A stretch of DNA of 64,000 nucleotides from Natronocalculus amylovorans (lineage in GTDB: Archaea > Halobacteriota > Halobacteria > Halobacteriales > Haloferacaceae). The stretch lies in assembly GCF_023638035.1 (NCBI RefSeq), contig NZ_JAKRVX010000003.1:372001-436000 (forward strand). Reading direction: 5' to 3'. The notes below the pieces were generated by a model that had not been told where the DNA came from, did not search any database, and saw only the letters and a program-made list of their open reading frames with translations. Shown here piece by piece: positions 5,250 through 36,408 of the stretch; the first letter of the stretch is position 1, and every line of letters begins with the position of its first letter. The position numbers and the translations under genes are program-made.

Positions 5250-6008
5250 TTAGTCAGGTGTGCTCTCACAGTGACAGGTGAACTCGTTTTCGTGTAGTCT
5301 GTTGGTAACCGTCTCTGTGAGTCGTTTAAGATTCACTGCATCCTCTCGATTATACGAGACAAGTGTCTCAAGTGATCCATCTCTCCCTTGTGTATGTTCT
5401 TGCCAGAGTCGAACGGCGTCAAGGCCAGAGATGTCCGGTCGATCACGTTCGATTCCAATCTCGCGCTCGATTGGTTTGAGCCCGCCTGAAAGCCCGAGCT
5501 TTTTGCAGGGATACATGAGATCCAGGTGTGGTGTCTCAATCGACAGTTCGAAACAGTCCTCTAAGAACGGCTGATCGAATCGAATGCCGTTGAAACTCAC
5601 AAGTAACGACGCATCTGCGCACATTTCTCGGATACGTTCTGCAGTAAGATTATCTCCTCGGACAAGCGTCGTTGTGTCGCCATTCTGATGGTAGCTGACT
5701 GTTGTGACAACGTTTCGTGATGAATCCAACCCTGTGGTTTCAATATCAAAAAAGCAGGCACGATCGCGGAAATTCTCGTACAATCGCCATCGCTCACTAC
5801 TTGGGAACCGGGTATCAAAGAACCGTGCATCCGGATCGCCGAGATGTGACTGTGCTTCGTCGATGAACTGTTCAATTCGCTTGCCCGTCGCCGGACCGAC
5901 TGCGGATCGGTCAAACGCATCCCAGTGGGTAATTCCTTGCTGCCAGAGGTTCTGTTCTGTCTGTGTTCCCACACCTTCGACAGGAATGAAGCTATTCTCA
6001 ATTCGCAC
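5250..6008 (-). CDS. RNase H-fold DEDD exonuclease (YprB-like)
   Basis: The 252-residue protein has a GTG start. An N-terminal helical region (1-80; GVGTQTEQNLWQQGI, helix-hairpin-helix-like) precedes a DnaQ/RNase H-like exonuclease core. The core has Exo I FFDIETTGL (Asp and Glu near 90-92), Exo II SFNGIRFDQPFL (Asp near 145) and Exo III YNREDAVNL (Asp near 225), giving the four acidic metal ligands. This matches the RNase_H_2/YprB ribonuclease-H-like family predicted to act on nucleic acid 3' ends. The SRAP gene upstream (6097) is divergent, which may hint at DNA repair. The substrate is unknown. Confidence 0.8.
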   Translation of the reverse strand: MRIENSFIPVEGVGTQTEQNLWQQGITHWDAFDRSAVGPATGKRIEQFIDEAQSHLGDPDARFFDTRFPSSERWRLYENFRDRACFFDIETTGLDSSRNVVTTVSYHQNGDTTTLVRGDNLTAERIREMCADASLLVSFNGIRFDQPFLEDCFELSIETPHLDLMYPCKKLGLSGGLKPIEREIGIERDRPDISGLDAVRLWQEHTQGRDGSLETLVSYNREDAVNLKRLTETVTNRLHENEFTCHCESTPD

Positions 6009-6096
6009 AGCTACAGTGTATGAGTCAGCCAGTAAAACATCATGGGTTAGTCGTATAGACGGTAGTGATTAACAGCCACAGCAGGTAGAATACGAT

Positions 6097-6786
6097 ATGT
6101 GTGGACGCTACTCGCTTTTTACGCCACAGGTCAAACTTGTCGATCGGTTTGGCGCAACACCAGAACAGCCACTAACAAGCCGATACAACTGCGCACCTGG
6201 CCAAGAGCTGCCGGTAATTACAACCGAGCACCCAGACAGAATGCAATTTTTCAAATGGGGATTCACGCCAAGGTGGGCTAAGAAGTCGTTTGATATGATC
6301 AATGCACGAGCAGAGTCCGTGCGATCGAAACGAAGCTTTTCGGATGCGTATAAATCACGACGCTGTCTGGTTATTGCAGATGGATTTTATGAATGGGTCG
6401 AAACTGATGACGGTGAGAAGCAGCCATATAGAGTGGCGTTTGCAGACGATCGGCCGTTTGCAATGGCAGGATTGTATGAGGAGTGGACACCGCCAACACA
6501 GCAGACTGGGTTAGCAGACTTTGGTGCCGGTGGAGACACAACCCCGGAGACCGTCACATCGTTTACAATAATTACAACTGAACCAAATGAGTTGATCGCA
6601 GACCTCCATCACCGAATGGCGGTTATTCTCTCTCCGGATGAAGAACAAAAATGGCTTACTGCGGACCCTGACACAGCAGAACCGTTGCTCGATCCATATC
6701 CTGATGACGAACTACAGGCATATCCGATCTCAACGCGAGTGAATAGCCCAGCAAACGATGACCCGTCAATTATAGAACCAATCTGA
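6097..6786 (+). CDS. SRAP-domain abasic-site DNA-protein crosslink protein (YedK/HMCES)
   Basis: The 229-residue protein begins MCGRYSLF, so Cys2 becomes the N-terminal catalytic residue after Met removal. SRAP proteins use this Cys to form a thiazolidine crosslink with abasic sites in single-stranded DNA. Other family hallmarks are visible: YNCAPGQ, FFKWGFTPRWAK, NARAESV, GFYEW (with the catalytic-site Glu) and the late HHRMAVIL with its conserved His. Length matches bacterial YedK. It stands alone, divergent from an exonuclease-like gene. The assignment is secure, and the role is protection of AP sites during replication. Confidence 0.93.
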   Translation: MCGRYSLFTPQVKLVDRFGATPEQPLTSRYNCAPGQELPVITTEHPDRMQFFKWGFTPRWAKKSFDMINARAESVRSKRSFSDAYKSRRCLVIADGFYEWVETDDGEKQPYRVAFADDRPFAMAGLYEEWTPPTQQTGLADFGAGGDTTPETVTSFTIITTEPNELIADLHHRMAVILSPDEEQKWLTADPDTAEPLLDPYPDDELQAYPISTRVNSPANDDPSIIEPI

Positions 6787-7723: not shown

Positions 7724-8353
7724 ATGAAAGACAGTACTCAGACACGAACAGTTGAAACACGAGCGATCGACGGCGTTGATGCCCTCATTAATACAAATCC
7801 CGGAGACATCTTCATTGATCTTCCAGCCTCGAATCCACGGTACATTCGGCTACAGGAAGGCGATCGGATTCAAGAAGGCGATGTCAGCACACGGACTGCT
7901 GCGGAGATGGCAGGCCCACTCTTGGCACATTGGACCATCGATACAATCACAACAGAGACGGTCCGTGGAACAAACACTCAGAATGGCAAAGAGCGCGAGT
8001 GGGATCGCGAGAACCTCATTGCCCGGTTATGTGCTGGAGAGTTTAGTACAGAGTTGCGGACGTTCGATCGCGTCAGTATCACTGAAATTGAGGGATGGCC
8101 TGGATTGCAGCATGATAGAGAGAGTGATACTACGCAGCCATATATTGTCGCAGTTATATACGGAAATAACGGGGACAAATTTACCCAGGTGTATGCCGCC
8201 ACCGCGAAGGGCGAGTGGGACTCATTACAGCTCGTCCAGCAGGATACTGCAATCACGGACCTCAGTGATTCACTGCAGCAAACGATCGAAGCCGCAGTTC
8301 AGACTGCACTCGCAACTGAAAAACAGTATCAGAGATTTGATTCACTCGAGTAA
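7724..8353 (+). CDS. uncharacterised soluble protein
   Basis: The 209-residue protein starts with ATG 7724, following CAT; an in-frame codon at 7703 is less likely. It is mostly beta and mixed, with short blocks such as GDIFIDLPASNPRYIRL near the N-terminus and YIVAVIYGNNGDKFTQVYAAT near 140-160. A helical C-terminal tail follows. It has no membrane segments, no metal-binding cluster and no P-loop. It is the last gene before the CGATCG-poor arsenic island, and the last CGATCG before the island (about 8282) lies within it. No function is assigned. Confidence 0.55.
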   Translation: MKDSTQTRTVETRAIDGVDALINTNPGDIFIDLPASNPRYIRLQEGDRIQEGDVSTRTAAEMAGPLLAHWTIDTITTETVRGTNTQNGKEREWDRENLIARLCAGEFSTELRTFDRVSITEIEGWPGLQHDRESDTTQPYIVAVIYGNNGDKFTQVYAATAKGEWDSLQLVQQDTAITDLSDSLQQTIEAAVQTALATEKQYQRFDSLE

Positions 8354-8560
8354 GGTACACGTTCCTCAAACTCAGATAGCGGAAGTCTCGTTCTTTCCCC
8401 TGTAAAACATCACACGTTGTGTTGAGACTAGATGAAGCACAACTTCGGAGGATCGGTTTTGATGTGTGCCTTAATTCACCGTTTCAAAGAGAGGTCTAAA
8501 AGACACTATTATATCAAAAAGCGCTCCATCACGCGATTACCATTCCACCAGATCCTAGAT

Positions 8561-8853
8561 TTACTGTGAATCGTTCGTGTCGACTTCGTCGAACAAGTCT
8601 GTGACTCGCTGTTCGATATCATCTCGGATCGCACGGACCTGATCGAGATCTTGGCTGTCTGGATCTTCCAGTGCCCAGTCACCACTTCGTTGCGGATGCT
8701 ATCGGCGGGGTGAGTACCACCGGTAATGATGTTAACACTGTCTTCGAGGCCACGACGCTCACGCTCGCGCTCGGCGAACGCTGTCGACATCTGACTACGG
8801 CCAGCGTTCTATACACAAACGAATGCTAAGGTAACCGATGAATTATCACTCAT
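8561..8853 (-). pseudogene. arsC: arsC (low-molecular-weight arsenate reductase), stop in the P-loop and internal deletion
   Basis: Translation from the ATG at 8853 gives MSDNSSVTLAFVCV, then TAG, then NAGRSQMSTAFAERER. In the LMW phosphatase/ArsC family this position reads CVQNAGRS, so one CAG-to-TAG change has put a stop in the active-site loop. The frame continues through GGTHPADSIRNEVVT. It then jumps, in another frame near 8690, straight to DWALEDPDSQDLDQV and a typical ArsC C-terminus ending TAA at 8561. About 50-60 central codons, including the region of the resolving Cys, are missing. It lies downstream of arsR, the order known from Halobacterium arsRC. It is a decayed gene. Confidence 0.85.
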
Positions 8854-8936: not shown

Positions 8937-9335
8937 TCATGGGACGATAGATCGAGAGCCGTCGAGTGCAATCAGGATGGCAGTGGCTCGGTTCGTTGAC
9001 CGATATTTGCGCCACTTCCCGTCCTTTCGCCGTGTGAGGAGCCCGGCCTCAGTGAGCTGAGAGAGTGCGTGGCTAATCGCACTGTCACTCACGTCGAGTA
9101 GTGGGGCGAACTCACAGACACACAGTTCTTCATCGGCAGTATGGAGAATTCTGACGATCTTGTAGCGTGTCTCGTTTGATAGCGCGGACAGCAGGTCGAC
9201 GTCCGCTTCGAGATCAGGGCCGCCGACGGCTGCATCCAATTCTTCGAGTTCTTCGAGGCGTTCTTGGAGCGCGTCGCTCGTACAACTCCCCCGTTCATCG
9301 CTGAGATACCGTTGGAGCCGGTCGCTCGCTGACAT
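8937..9335 (-). CDS. arsR: ArsR-family winged-helix metalloregulator
   Basis: This 132-residue repressor has a helical N-terminal extension (1-45) and a winged HTH at about 45-120. ELCVCEFAPLL carries the Cys-x-Cys of the alpha-3 As(III)/Sb(III) site. The recognition helix region is SDSAISHALSQLTEAGLL, followed by the wing RRKDGKWRKYRS. ArsR proteins bind operator DNA and release it when arsenite binds. It is divergent from arsD and upstream of the broken arsC. A TATA-like TTAATTTA lies about 25 bases upstream of the ATG, which suits leaderless transcription. Confidence in the family is high; the inducer is inferred from context. Confidence 0.92.
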   Translation of the reverse strand: MSASDRLQRYLSDERGSCTSDALQERLEELEELDAAVGGPDLEADVDLLSALSNETRYKIVRILHTADEELCVCEFAPLLDVSDSAISHALSQLTEAGLLTRRKDGKWRKYRSTNRATAILIALDGSRSIVP

Positions 9336-9763: not shown

Positions 9764-10090
9764 ATGACTCAAATCCAACTCTACGAAGAAGCAATGTGCT
9801 GCTCCACAGGCGTCTGTGGACCTGACCCCAACGACGAACTTGTCGAACTAAGTGCTGCACTCGACCAACTCGAAGACGAATTCGCCGAGGCTGAGATTTC
9901 GCGTGCCAATATGCAGCACAACATCGACGAGTTCCTCAATACTCAGGAGATCTACGATCTCGTCGAAGCAAACGGCCCCAAAATCCTCCCGATTACCACC
10001 GTCGACGGCGAGATCGTCGCCAAAGAGGAGTATCTCTCCTACGATGAGCTGGCAGCCGAACTGCGCGCCAATCAACCTCAGGAGACCTAA
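9764..10090 (+). CDS. arsD: ArsD arsenite metallochaperone
   Basis: Counting from ATG 9764, the vicinal cysteines in EAMCCSTGVCG fall at 12, 13 and 18. These are the positions of the arsenite-binding Cys of classical ArsD, so I prefer this start. An in-frame ATG at 9680 would add 28 residues. The protein is 108 residues with the thioredoxin-like ArsD fold (RANMQHNIDEFL, GPKILPITTVDGEIV). ArsD passes As(III) to ArsA and raises its ATPase activity. It lacks the C-terminal Cys pairs seen in some bacterial ArsD proteins. The gap to arsA is three bases, so translation is probably coupled. Confidence 0.92.
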   Translation: MTQIQLYEEAMCCSTGVCGPDPNDELVELSAALDQLEDEFAEAEISRANMQHNIDEFLNTQEIYDLVEANGPKILPITTVDGEIVAKEEYLSYDELAAELRANQPQET

Positions 10091-10093
10091 TTA

Positions 10094-12031
10094 ATGGCAA
10101 CAACGCAACCGGCAACTGACGCCCGAGAGATCGTGGAACCGAGCAGCGAGGACACCGAGTTCGTCTTCTTCAGCGGGAAGGGCGGCGTCGGCAAGAGCAC
10201 CGTCAGCTGTGCGACAGCGACGTGGCTCGCCGACAACGACTACAACACCCTGCTGGTGACGACTGACCCCGCGCCGAATCTCTCGGATATCTTCGGCCAG
10301 GAGATCGGCCACGAAGTCACCGATATCGACGGGATCGACAACCTCTCGGCCATCGAGATCGACCCCGACGCCGCAGCCGATGAGTACCGCCAAGAGACCA
10401 TCGAGCCGATGCGCGAGTTGCTCGATGACGAGCAGATCAAGGCTGTCGAAGAACAGCTCAACAGCCCGTGTGTCGAGGAGATTGCGGCCTTCGACAACTT
10501 CGTCGACTTCATGGATTCCCCGGAGTACGACGTGGTCGTCTTCGATACTGCACCCACCGGTCACACCATCCGGCTGATGGAACTTCCCTCCGACTGGAAC
10601 GCCGAACTCGAAAAAGGCGGGTCAACCTGTATCGGCCCCGCCGCCTCAATGGAGGAGCGTAAGAAGGATTACGAGCGCGCCATTGACACCCTCCAGGACA
10701 GCGAGAAAACCTCCTTTGCCTTCGTCGGCAAGCCAGAGGACTCCTCGGTCGACGAGATCCAGCGAAGTGCGTCGGATCTGGGCGAACTTGGTATCGAATC
10801 GCAGCTCCTCATTATCAACGGCTATCTACCCGAATCAGTCTGTGAAGACCCCTTCTTCGATGGAAAACGCGAGGACGAACAGGCGGTCATCGAACGCGCC
10901 GCCTCGGAGTTCGACGTCGACGCGATGGAAACCTATCCGCTCCAACCCGGTGAGATTGCCGGTCTGGACCTCTTGGCAGATGTCGGTGGCGTCCTCTACG
11001 ATGGTGACGAGGCCACCGTCGACGTGGGGTCGGCAACCAACGTTGCGAAAGCCGAGTCGGTCGACATCGAGTCACTAGTCGATCCCGACGCAGTCGCCGA
11101 GAAGCTCCAGCCGGTCGACGGGGAGACGCGCTATCTGTTCTTCACTGGGAAGGGCGGGGTTGGCAAGAGCACCATCGCCGCGACGTCAGCAACGAAACTC
11201 GCTGAAGCAGGCTACGAAACACTCGTGGTGACAACAGATCCGGCCGCACATCTTGAAGACATCTTTGGCGAGCCAGTCGGCTACGACCCGACATCGGTAA
11301 GCCAAGCAAACCTCGATGCAGCCCGCATCGACCAGGAGCAGGCTCTTGAAGAGTACCGCGAGCAGGTGCTCAATCACGTCACCGAGATGTACGAGAACAA
11401 GGAGGACACTCAGATCGACGTCGACGCGGCCATCGCGAACGTCGAAGAGGAGCTCGAATCACCGTGTGCCGAGGAAATGGCAGCCCTCGAAAAGTTCGTG
11501 GCCTACTTCGACGAGGACAGCTACGACATCGTCGTCTTCGACACCGCGCCGACTGGTCACACGCTCCGCCTCCTCGAACTCCCCTCGGATTGGAAGGGCT
11601 TCATGGATCTCGGGTCGCTGACGAAGGGTGCAGCTCCCGCCAAAGGCGACCAGTATGACAACGTGATCGAGACGATGCAGAACCCTGACAAAAGCTCGTT
11701 CGCCTTCGTCATGTATCCCGAGTACACACCGATGATGGAGGCCCATCGGGCGGCCGAGGACCTGAAAGATCAGGTCGGAATCGAGACCTCCTTCGTCGTC
11801 GCCAACTACCTCCTGCCTGAAGAGTACGGCAACAACGCCTTCTTCGCCAACCGGAGGGCCCAACAGCAGCAGTATCTCGGCGAGATCAAGGAGCGGTTCG
11901 AGACGCCCATGATGCTCGCACCGCTTCGACAGGACGAGCCCATTGGCCTCGACGAACTCAGCGCGTTCGGCGACCAGGTGACCGGACTGGATGCACTCAA
12001 CGAGCAGGTCACAGAGATGCCACAACAATGA
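10094..12031 (+). CDS. arsA: ArsA arsenite-stimulated ATPase, two fused domains
   Basis: The 645-residue protein is a tandem of two SIMIBI ATPase halves, each with a deviant Walker A GKGGVGKST (28-36 and 352-360) and a DTAPTGHT switch. Cys126 and Cys458 (both SPC-EE contexts) and possibly Cys179 (STCIGPA) correspond to the metalloid-binding cysteines of bacterial ArsA. This supports an arsenical ATPase rather than a Get3 targeting factor. ArsA energises an arsenite efflux carrier, but no arsB or acr3 lies in this window. In Halobacterium the plasmid arsADRC cluster likewise lacks an adjacent arsB. The stop overlaps the start of the next gene (ATGA). GC content is well above the neighbourhood. 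Confidence 0.95.
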   Translation: MATTQPATDAREIVEPSSEDTEFVFFSGKGGVGKSTVSCATATWLADNDYNTLLVTTDPAPNLSDIFGQEIGHEVTDIDGIDNLSAIEIDPDAAADEYRQETIEPMRELLDDEQIKAVEEQLNSPCVEEIAAFDNFVDFMDSPEYDVVVFDTAPTGHTIRLMELPSDWNAELEKGGSTCIGPAASMEERKKDYERAIDTLQDSEKTSFAFVGKPEDSSVDEIQRSASDLGELGIESQLLIINGYLPESVCEDPFFDGKREDEQAVIERAASEFDVDAMETYPLQPGEIAGLDLLADVGGVLYDGDEATVDVGSATNVAKAESVDIESLVDPDAVAEKLQPVDGETRYLFFTGKGGVGKSTIAATSATKLAEAGYETLVVTTDPAAHLEDIFGEPVGYDPTSVSQANLDAARIDQEQALEEYREQVLNHVTEMYENKEDTQIDVDAAIANVEEELESPCAEEMAALEKFVAYFDEDSYDIVVFDTAPTGHTLRLLELPSDWKGFMDLGSLTKGAAPAKGDQYDNVIETMQNPDKSSFAFVMYPEYTPMMEAHRAAEDLKDQVGIETSFVVANYLLPEEYGNNAFFANRRAQQQQYLGEIKERFETPMMLAPLRQDEPIGLDELSAFGDQVTGLDALNEQVTEMPQQ

Positions 12032-12402
12032 GCGACTCCGAATCCGTCCAGAACGCAGAGGACGCCGTCGAAGAGAAACTTCAAACTTTCATCGATGCTG
12101 TTGCGGACAGCGAGAGCTATCAGGAGTTCATTGAGGTCAACAAGCAGCTCGAAAGCGACCCCAAAGCGATGGAGCTGCTCGATGAGTACCGACAGAAGCA
12201 ACAACAGATGCAACAGGGCTTCGATCAAGAACTCATGGCTGAGCTCCAAGAGATTCAAACAGAACTCTCGGAAAACAAGACGATTCAGCAGCACAGGGAA
12301 GCCCAGTCGGCACTAGTCGAGTTGCTTCAGGAGACCAACGACGTAATCAGCGAGCCGATCGGTATGGAGTTCGCCCAGTCCTCGGGAGGTGGGTGCTGTT
12401 GA
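12028..12402 (+). CDS. hcsL: YlbF-like 'halo-CC-star' protein ending in Cys-Cys
   Basis: The 124-residue, almost wholly helical protein is rich in Gln and Glu (QKQQQMQQGFDQELMAEL) and ends SSGGGCC followed directly by the stop. This fits, from memory, a haloarchaeal YlbF-type family called HcsL, named for the terminal CC-stop. YlbF/YmcA proteins in Bacillus form a complex that binds Fe-S clusters through Cys residues. A terminal vicinal Cys pair is a natural site for As(III) or another thiophilic metal. The start overlaps the arsA stop by four bases. A direct role as an As(III) donor or scavenger for ArsA is inference only. Confidence 0.75.
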   Translation: MSDSESVQNAEDAVEEKLQTFIDAVADSESYQEFIEVNKQLESDPKAMELLDEYRQKQQQMQQGFDQELMAELQEIQTELSENKTIQQHREAQSALVELLQETNDVISEPIGMEFAQSSGGGCC

Positions 12403-12581
12403 GCACCGCTGACGAAGAGGTATTGGCAGCTGCCGAGGAATTCGCCGAGGAGCTTCGAAGCGCCCAACAGGAATCGAGCCAGTTCGAATTCAACTCACTG
12501 CTGCTGCGCTGCAACGATGCGATCACTGCGGAGATCGGGGTCGACTACGGCGATGTTTGCGATACTGACGATTGCGGTTAG
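12399..12581 (+). CDS. hcsS: small Cys-containing partner of the CC-star protein
   Basis: About 60 residues: helical and acidic, with Cys near 38 (LLRCNDAI) and a Cys-rich tail VCDTDDCG. It resembles the small half (HcsS) of the halo-CC-star pair. Start choice: the GGAGGT at 12385-12390 is two bases from GTG 12393 but eight from TTG 12399. TTG overlaps the hcsL stop as TTGA and is preferred. The expected CC end is replaced by DDCG-stop exactly where transposase sequence begins. The last residues may therefore have been altered by the insertion. Co-translation with arsA and hcsL is likely. Confidence 0.6.
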   Translation: MSTADEEVLAAAEEFAEELRSAQQESSQFEFNSLLLRCNDAITAEIGVDYGDVCDTDDCG

Positions 12582-13329
12582 TCGACGGGATGTCGGTGGT
12601 AAGTGGGCTTGATCAGGAGAACCGAGCGTTCAAATTCGCCACGCTATCGATTGTCGGGCAGAATATTCCACTCGTCTTGGCTGTCGAATCTGTGCGGGAG
12701 AGCTCAGCATGGGACGAGAACCCATCTAATCAGGTCCATCGAATTGTCCGTCGACTCCTCCAACGTGCTAAAGAGCATGTGCCTATCAAGACAGTACTGT
12801 TCGACCGGGAGTTCGACTCTATGCGAGTCTATCAGACACTCTCGAATCTCGAAATAAATTACCTCATCCCGAAACTGGTCTCCAGCTTTGAACAGGACGT
12901 ATTCAATCACTTGGAGGCGGACGATCAAGAGGTCGTTGTTGAGTTGGCCTCCGTTCACGTCGAGACGGGCTCGCATCCGATGCGGTTCCTATACGTTCCG
13001 TCGACGAAAGGCGAGGAACGGCAGTATTTGCAACTAATCTCAGGGTCAGTCCAGATGAAGCCGAAGCACTCTGTCGCCGGTATAGTCACCGGTGGCAAAT
13101 CGAAAACGAGTACAAAAGCATCAAGAACGACTTCTTGGCGAAAACGTCCTCGAAGGACTATCGGGTTCGGCTATTCTACTTCGTATTCGCCGTGCTATTG
13201 TACAATATCTGGCGGCTCACTGACTTCCTGTTGAAATCCGGTGTCGATGGTGAGATGGACTATGCGCCGGTCCTGACAGCAGGAGAGTGCGTAGAGTTGG
13301 TGTGTGGAGAACTGATACCGCCTGATTAA
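12572..13329 (+). mobile_element. IS4-type (ISH) transposase remnant, 5'-truncated and frameshifted
   Basis: The readable protein starts abruptly with VDGMSVVSGLDQENR; the N-terminal third is gone. FDREFDS supplies the second catalytic Asp. Near 13010-13020 one base is missing (GAGGAACGG in place of a likely GAGGGAACGG) and the frame shifts. The other frame continues with RRYSHRWQIENEYKSIK, which carries the Y-(2)-R-(3)-E-(6)-K signature of IS4 family elements, and runs to IPPD and TAA at 13329. The element cannot make a full transposase. Its insertion abuts the end of hcsS and may have deleted island genes. CGATCG is absent here. Confidence 0.85.
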
Positions 13330-13626
13330 ACGGGTATCTCACCAATGGCTCGCATTTCTTGAGTGGCGACACTCCGATTCGAGGCCAAATACCAATTAGC
13401 ACCAGTGGTGTTATTTCTGGAGCGTGTCGAATAGAAACCCACGACAGTTCGTCTGTCTGCTACTCGATTAGCGGTGATTACTGAAAAATAGCGAGAACAG
13501 GCCCAGTTCTACCCCATCCTCCGAAACTGTGGCTGAAGATCGCACCCCATATTTTGTATAGCGTTATATAATTTATGAGTTCAAAATACAACAGTAGTTT
13601 TGCTAAAATGAGATACAAATAATTGC
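13330..13626. other. no gene seen; AT-rich tail of the island
   Basis: The stretch between the transposase stop and the recombinase stop has no supported reading frame. Its left part may hold the right end of the IS. Its right part (from about 13550) is AT-rich with TATA-like runs. I could not identify an inverted terminal repeat or a target duplication by eye. Confidence 0.4.
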
Positions 13627-35344: not shown

Positions 35345-35719
35345 ATGAGCGTCGAAACGGTATCCCTTGCAGATATTGGTCGAGATCTCGGTGAGCAGAT
35401 TGCAGAGACAGACGTGTACGAACGCTTCGAAAGAGCAAGCCAAGCAGTTGAGAACGATCCAGAAGCACAAGAAAAAATAGCGTCATTTGAACAGCTTCGC
35501 CAAGAATTCATGGCTGCCAGACAAACCGGTGATGCCGACCGAGAGTCGCTTCGACGGGTCCAGAACGCGCAAAATGAGCTCCACTCGCTCCCAGTGATGA
35601 AGGAGTATCTCGCTGCGCAGAGTGACCTACAAAACACGCTCGAAGAGATTAACAAAGCCATTTCAGAGCCGCTGTCGGTTGATTTCGGTGGTGAAGCAGG
35701 CGGTTGCTGTCACGATTAA
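35345..35719 (+). CDS. second YlbF/HcsL-like helical protein with CCHD tail
   Basis: The 124-residue all-helical protein has the same length and layout as the gene at 12028: LADIGRDLGEQIAETDVYERFERASQAVENDP, a long charged helix, LHSLPVMKEYLAAQSDL, then PLSVDFGGEAGGCCHD at the end. Unlike the arsenic-island copy, the Cys pair is followed by His-Asp. Cys-Cys-His could bind a metal or Fe-S cluster, as in the bacterial YlbF/YmcA/YaaT complex. CGATCG density around it is native, so it is probably the chromosomal paralogue. Function is unknown. Confidence 0.8.
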   Translation: MSVETVSLADIGRDLGEQIAETDVYERFERASQAVENDPEAQEKIASFEQLRQEFMAARQTGDADRESLRRVQNAQNELHSLPVMKEYLAAQSDLQNTLEEINKAISEPLSVDFGGEAGGCCHD

Positions 35720-35784
35720 TATCGGTCTTACTGTCAGTGTAGCGTGACAATATTTAACTGCGTATCACTGTAGAGTGTTTATAC

Positions 35785-36408
35785 GTGACACGACTCTCGA
35801 CTGGTATCCCAGTTCTCGATCGGCAACTCGATGGCGGGTTTCCAGCTGGAAGCATCGTGCTTCTTTCTGCGCCTCCCGCAAGCCAGTCTGAGCTATTTTT
35901 GTATGATTTCACGGCACCACGGCGGACGCTCTATCTGACAACGCTTCGATCTGAGGAGTCGGTTCACGATTCATTCGTGGATACAACATCACATGTTACC
36001 GTCCCAAAAATCATGGAGTTGGGTGCGGATGCCCCACTTGATGAAGCGAATCAACTGATTGGAATGTTGCCCGAAGAGTCAACACTGATTATTGATGCAC
36101 TCAATCCGCTTGAAGAACAAGACCATAACCGGTATCGATTCTTTTTAAATCAGCTACAGCGACACCTACAAAACACGGATAGCGTTGCAATCCTTCATGC
36201 GCTTAGTGGGCAGTACATTCCAGAATCACGGGACATGACTGAGTACATGGCAGATATCGTCTTTGATTTACAAACAACAGTCAGAGGAAACGAGGTTATC
36301 AACAAACTTGCGGTACCAAAGTTCCGCGGTGGCAGGGCCTTAGAAGATACGGTCAAACTCAAACTTACAGAAGCGGTAACGATCGACACCAGCCGCGACA
36401 TCGCGTAA
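35785..36408 (+). CDS. KaiC/RadA-like RecA-superfamily protein with degenerate P-loop
   Basis: The 207-residue protein starts with GTG at 35785. TGIPVLDRQLDGGFPAGSIVLLSAPP is the standard KaiC-like N-terminus, but the Walker A that should read GxxGxGKT is APPASQSE here: no Gly-Lys-Thr. Walker B-like STLIIDALNPLEE and the later DIVFDLQTT and KLAVPKFRGG strands are kept. Haloarchaea carry many short RAD55/'HTR-like' proteins of this kind. Loss of the catalytic Lys suggests nucleotide sensing or a structural role. It follows the YlbF-like gene by 65 bases and may be co-transcribed with it. Confidence 0.8.
   Translation: MTRLSTGIPVLDRQLDGGFPAGSIVLLSAPPASQSELFLYDFTAPRRTLYLTTLRSEESVHDSFVDTTSHVTVPKIMELGADAPLDEANQLIGMLPEESTLIIDALNPLEEQDHNRYRFFLNQLQRHLQNTDSVAILHALSGQYIPESRDMTEYMADIVFDLQTTVRGNEVINKLAVPKFRGGRALEDTVKLKLTEAVTIDTSRDIA

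Follow-up and report, generated by a model that had tools for sequence, protein, structure and literature searches.

The window, a 64,000-nucleotide stretch from a contig of the haloarchaeon Natronocalculus amylovorans, holds a compact ars module in which two small genes, hcsL and hcsS, directly follow the arsenite ATPase gene. The relevant features, in window positions, are:

8937 to 9335, minus strand: arsR-type regulator, divergent from arsD (NCBIfam NF033788, HTH_metalloreg, 76.4 bits, cut-off 55)
9764 to 10090, plus strand: arsD, As(III) metallochaperone (NF033727, 112.2 bits)
10094 to 12031, plus strand: arsA (ArsA_halo), two-domain ATPase (NF041417, 1147 bits)
12028 to 12402, plus strand: hcsL, 124 aa (NF041416, 148.7 bits, cut-off 140)
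12385 to 12402, plus strand: codons of the HcsL tail, Gly-Gly-Gly-Cys-Cys-stop, which also hold the hcsS ribosome-binding site GGAGGTG and the hcsS start
12399 to 12581, plus strand: hcsS, 60 aa from a TTG start (NF041415, 93.6 bits, cut-off 55)
35345 to 35719, plus strand: core chromosomal YlbF paralogue with a GGCCHD tail, outside the ars module and listed for comparison only

The four genes from arsD to hcsS are separated by +3, -4 and -4 bases, just as an earlier note on this DNA had read them. The -4 overlaps recur at nearly all loci, and at most HcsL loci an ArsR gene diverges from arsD. The hcsL/hcsS junction reads GGAGGTGGGTGCTGTTGA. Relatives of hcsS are annotated with a start 6 bases further 5', at an in-frame GTG whose equivalent here is position 12393.

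A broken arsC of the low-molecular-weight phosphatase type (arsenate reductase) lies at 8570-8853 on the minus strand, with an in-frame stop near its start, then a frameshift and the loss of its middle part; intact relatives occur at sister loci. Immediately 3' of hcsS, a few bases past its stop codon, begins an insertion-sequence remnant with transposase sequence (12590-13330), to which copies near other ars loci (L033, L041, L057, L096 and L098) are 75-84% identical.

The genes themselves are not new. The earlier note saw a candidate new module and knew of no described function for them, but hcsL and hcsS are existing NCBIfam family names (NF041416 and NF041415, ‘halo-CC-star’), and RefSeq already annotates both genes in Halobacterium NRC-1 and on many plasmids. 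Both window proteins exceed the curated cut-offs. HcsL scores above 140 bits and ends in Cys-Cys-stop, whereas HcsS scores above 55 bits and lacks the terminal Cys pair. The family name carries no function, and ‘halo’ is too narrow, as two methanogens also have the pair. Within the literature searched, no paper contains ‘halo-CC-star’, and the review passages covered make no mention of HcsL or HcsS.

Linkage and co-inheritance with ArsA

HcsL and HcsS belong almost without exception to the archaeal ArsA system, and this part of the picture is new. Across 341 Halobacteria genomes, 57 encode ArsA_halo, 58 HcsL and 61 HcsS; the HcsS matches that stand alone look like remnants. ArsA and HcsL occur together in 56 genomes (Fisher p about 1e-60, a value that is overstated because the genomes counted share ancestry and are not independent events). 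Of the 64 HcsL genes, 61 follow arsA immediately and in the same orientation, and the remaining three (G064 C2, G192 and G316) sit behind truncated arsA remnants. These loci span many genera, which rules out a linkage confined to a few relatives. The survey of haloarchaeal genomes suggested in the earlier note thus bears out the link to arsA, as 56 of the 57 ArsA genomes carry HcsL. In Halobacterium NRC-1, too, hcsL and hcsS stand immediately behind arsA. The one solitary ArsA_halo, in G128 (L091; 928 bits), has neither ArsD nor HcsL alongside; it adjoins a 944-aa Tat-signal protein resembling a molybdopterin oxidoreductase.

The spread over many genera, combined with patchy presence in about one genome in six, argues that the genes move and persist as one intact unit. 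Evolutionary distances fit this picture. HcsL distances correlate with those of ArsA (r 0.67 over 57 loci, 0.81 over 17 genomes), whereas in the same 17 genomes the core chromosomal YlbF paralogue gives 0.36 with ArsA and 0.20 with HcsL; HcsL therefore tracks ArsA and not its chromosomal relative. Purifying selection acts on hcsL and hcsS, dN/dS being mostly 0.08-0.34, with one pair at 0.77 on few changes.

The association reaches beyond haloarchaea. Searches there were phylum-wide with PF06133 and class-wide with the HcsL model; an alignment search of the named genome collection found no HcsL outside haloarchaea. Two methanogens (G405 and G510, both with mcrA) encode arsD, an AhpD-like protein, arsA, hcsL, hcsS and acr3 head to tail, with an HcsL that ends GGCC. 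The additional gene between arsD and arsA is AhpD/carboxymuconolactone-decarboxylase-like and carries a CxxC motif (8241-8570, minus strand, at L169 of G405; 5972-6346, plus strand, at L166 of G510). In two further methanogens, G528 and G551, pairs resembling HcsL/HcsS have altered tails and stand without an ArsA gene in the vicinity. The near-obligate linkage, its recurrence in two methanogens and the co-inheritance together lend strong support to the earlier note's idea that a Cys-tailed YlbF-like pair works with ArsA.

Fold and cysteine tails of HcsL and HcsS

The YlbF family is widespread and known mainly from RNA processing and development in Bacillus. HcsL belongs to it, matching Pfam Com_YlbF (PF06133) at 67.8 bits against a cut-off of 23.9, and ends in GGGCC-stop, so the reading of HcsL as a YlbF-like helical protein with a Cys-Cys-stop end was sound. 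Its AlphaFold model has five helices (pLDDT 84.7), with residues 118-124 below 50 and predicted to be disordered. The best fold match is 6prk_A, RicF in the RicA:RicF crystal (Z 11.6; TM 0.73/0.78; rmsd 2.2 over 105 residues), unrelated rows reaching Z of at most 7.5. By profile and by predicted structure, then, HcsL has the RicF/YlbF fold that it shares with RicA/RicF (YmcA/YlbF) of the RicAFT complex, followed by a disordered Cys tail.

HcsS is modeled as a helical hairpin plus a tail (pLDDT 81.6), and its profile matches the C-terminal half of HcsL (probability 95, E 2.4e-8). This homology makes the two proteins paralogues, HcsS deriving from the C-terminal half of HcsL. In the window, HcsS is a 60-aa acidic protein ending VCDTDDCG-stop (C54-x4-C59-G60). 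In a sister genome, G081, it ends CDTDDCC instead; relative to that sequence, one T-to-G substitution has replaced the final Cys by Gly in the window. HcsS relatives mostly end in CC, although five other loci have a single terminal Cys; the tail holds three Cys in 53 of 60 sequences and two in the other seven. The earlier description of HcsS as small, acidic and Cys-tailed stands, with two Cys in the tail and no terminal pair.

The HcsL tail is nearly invariant. It reads GGGCC in 60 sequences with one exception (GGECC), and in 51 of the 60 the terminal pair is the sole Cys. This conservation cannot all be credited to the protein. The codons GGA GGT GGG TGC TGT TGA hold both the GGAGGTG ribosome-binding site and the TTG start of hcsS, and the tail DNA is therefore conserved partly for hcsS translation. 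Taken to its end, this would make GGGCC a by-product of the overlap and its Cys functionless, a reading that is now scarcely credible and that we reject as a full explanation. The Cys pair persists at junctions of another sequence (TGT TGC TGA TG in G257 and G272), in methanogens, where hcsS can start past the overlap, and in the core paralogue; we conclude that it is selected as protein. HcsS, moreover, bears a conserved Cys tail of its own.

As the core paralogue also shows, such tails occur beyond the ars-linked protein. It is 34% identical to HcsL and has no ars context, forming a separate clade with support of 100/99. Both proteins carry GGCC near the C terminus, but in the core YlbF 2-3 residues follow the pair (GGCCxD): all 33 relatives extracted have a GGCC or GCC pair 2-3 residues before the end. 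Cys-pair tails are thus more widely shared among YlbF proteins of haloarchaea, and they may have a general role, not one specific to metalloids. A RecA/RAD55-like ATPase gene follows the core YlbF gene on the same strand (window 35345-36408), and likewise at L103. YlbF proteins at L148-L159 except L152 (family f15, probably Archaeoglobales) form a clade of their own without a Cys tail, ending DFGEVYRR or similar.

The analogy with Bacillus drawn in the earlier note is sound. RicA and RicF, like HcsL and HcsS, are two paralogous YlbF-type proteins with disordered tails and Cys near the C terminus. In the Bacillus proteins, the ligand Cys lie in these C-terminal tails, which are needed for RicT binding, and assembly of the shared [4Fe-4S] cluster requires RicT, RicAF alone taking up none (PMC6751060). 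The archaeal pair differs in that it appears to partner ArsA, that HcsS is half-length and that the tail of HcsL closes with two vicinal Cys. Furthermore, the RicT family (PSP1 domain, PF04468), the partner that marks a RicAFT-type complex, was found in none of 46 genomes, the window's own included, while the B. subtilis control was positive. A pair with a predicted Ric fold and no RicT is likewise new. The simplest reading is that ArsA is the partner of this YlbF-type pair, whose tails would offer their thiols to the metalloid site of ArsA.

The main rival to that reading keeps the cluster. In it, the HcsL and HcsS tails would hold an Fe-S cluster as RicA, RicF and RicT do, and metalloid would never sit on them; the cluster would sense metalloid or redox stress, or control ArsA assembly. 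Fold and Cys placement are those of RicF and RicA, whose tails ligate [4Fe-4S] with RicT, and HcsL and HcsS together offer at least four tail thiols in 60 of 60 pairs (two plus two or three). In addition, the delivery of RicT to RNase Y by RicA and RicF depends on the cluster (PMC10470536). Weighing against a cluster are the missing RicT, the failure of Bacillus RicAF to take one up alone, the rarity with which vicinal Cys ligate a single cluster, and an operon context that is wholly metalloid. We regard this alternative as unlikely, though it deserves to be taken seriously.

Metalloid entry and exit, and the proposed place of HcsL and HcsS

On its entry side, the pathway has all its parts. 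ArsA has the two P-loop halves of an arsenite ATPase, and alignment to 1f48 places its Cys 126, 179 and 458 at the metalloid-binding Cys 113, 172 and 422 of E. coli ArsA; all three are kept in 62 of 62 full-length sequences. ArsD retains Cys12, Cys13 and Cys18 at 59 of 59 loci. The C-terminal Cys pairs of E. coli ArsD are absent from haloarchaeal ArsD at these 59 loci, and others have linked those pairs to its repressor role (PMC4562236). HcsL resembles ArsD in being small, having vicinal Cys and being encoded next to arsA. It nevertheless belongs to an unrelated family, matching YlbF and not the ArsD family PF06953; its Cys are C-terminal, and it accompanies a complete ArsD without replacing it.

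The exit side, unlike the entry side, is incomplete. ArsB (PF02040), the membrane subunit of the ArsAB pump, was found in none of the 54 ArsA genomes and none of 80 genomes overall, with a positive B. subtilis control. Intact Acr3 is present in 16 of the 54 ArsA genomes and absent from 38, and an ArsP-type permease (PF03773) is present in 39. Thirteen of the 54, including the window's own genome, have none of the three. Because many of the genomes are draft assemblies, any single absence is soft, but the overall pattern is not. The archaeal ArsA system is thus mostly without a known As(III) permease, a further point that is new here. The window's own genome does encode three CitMHS-type permeases. 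An earlier report already remarks that haloarchaeal ars clusters lack arsB (PMC8563766). Another describes an arsADRC cluster in NRC-1 that confers resistance to As(III) and Sb(III), either of which induces it, the chromosomal arsB playing no role (PMC3600143). With hcsL and hcsS immediately 3' of arsA in NRC-1, such work may have missed their part.

We propose, tentatively and with a little less than even confidence, that ArsA has in HcsL and HcsS an obligate accessory pair of the Ric type, with tails that bind As(III) or Sb(III) and trade it with the ATPase. In this model, HcsL would join HcsS through its YlbF-fold body in a heteromer like RicA:RicF, docked on ArsA. From this body would extend flexible tails, Cys-Cys in HcsL and Cys-x4-6-Cys-Cys in most HcsS, which would bind the metalloid and exchange it with the three-Cys site of ArsA. 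As to the direction of transfer, we infer an exit-side role, in which the pair would take metalloid from ArsA or couple ArsA to a permease. This is more likely than a second donor because ArsD is complete as the entry-side donor and because a permease gene follows in methanogens. That permease, Acr3, is encoded next in the two methanogens, while most haloarchaea have none in the operon. HcsL and HcsS may supply a part missing from an arsenic pump that in these organisms is without its usual membrane subunit.

Several observations speak against this proposal. The core YlbF carries its Cys tail outside any ars context, G528 and G551 have pairs of the HcsL/HcsS kind away from ArsA, and G128 has an ArsA without HcsL. 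Moreover, E. coli ArsA works without proteins of the HcsL/HcsS type.

The membrane side suggests another role for the pair, as structural adaptors that dock ArsA to a permease, with the Cys forming only a minor zinc or disulfide site. With ArsB absent and Acr3 mostly so, ArsA needs some other membrane partner, and acr3 follows hcsS in the methanogens. No conserved membrane protein, however, accompanies the haloarchaeal HcsL loci (acr3 at 10 of 60 and an ArsP-type permease at 9 of 60), and a Cys pair kept almost without exception in HcsL speaks for a chemical role, leaving a purely structural function quite improbable. The chemistry could instead be redox. Terminal vicinal Cys serve as thiol shuttles in other enzymes, and the tails might form a dithiol-disulfide shuttle that keeps the Cys of ArsA, ArsD or ArsC reduced. 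The AhpD-like CxxC protein encoded between arsD and arsA in the two methanogens would fit such a shuttle, but haloarchaeal loci have no conserved thioredoxin-like or flavin partner nearby, and we consider it improbable. Prenylation of the terminal Cys, as in Rab proteins, was dropped for want of evidence.

A bolder version of our proposal, which we put forward as speculation and think rather unlikely to hold in full, makes the archaeal arsenite ATPase a four-part machine of ArsD, ArsA, HcsL and HcsS. The paired Cys tails of its Ric-like pair, which lacks the RNA-processing partner known from bacteria, would move metalloid from ArsA to a permease other than ArsB, and YlbF proteins would be general metal-handling adaptors acting through tail thiols, beyond their standing as competence or RNA factors.

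An obligate two-protein partner of ArsA within the NRC-1 resistance cluster is a question directly testable in a tractable organism. If the proposal is right, the YlbF family would gain a second, simpler context in which to understand its Cys tails.
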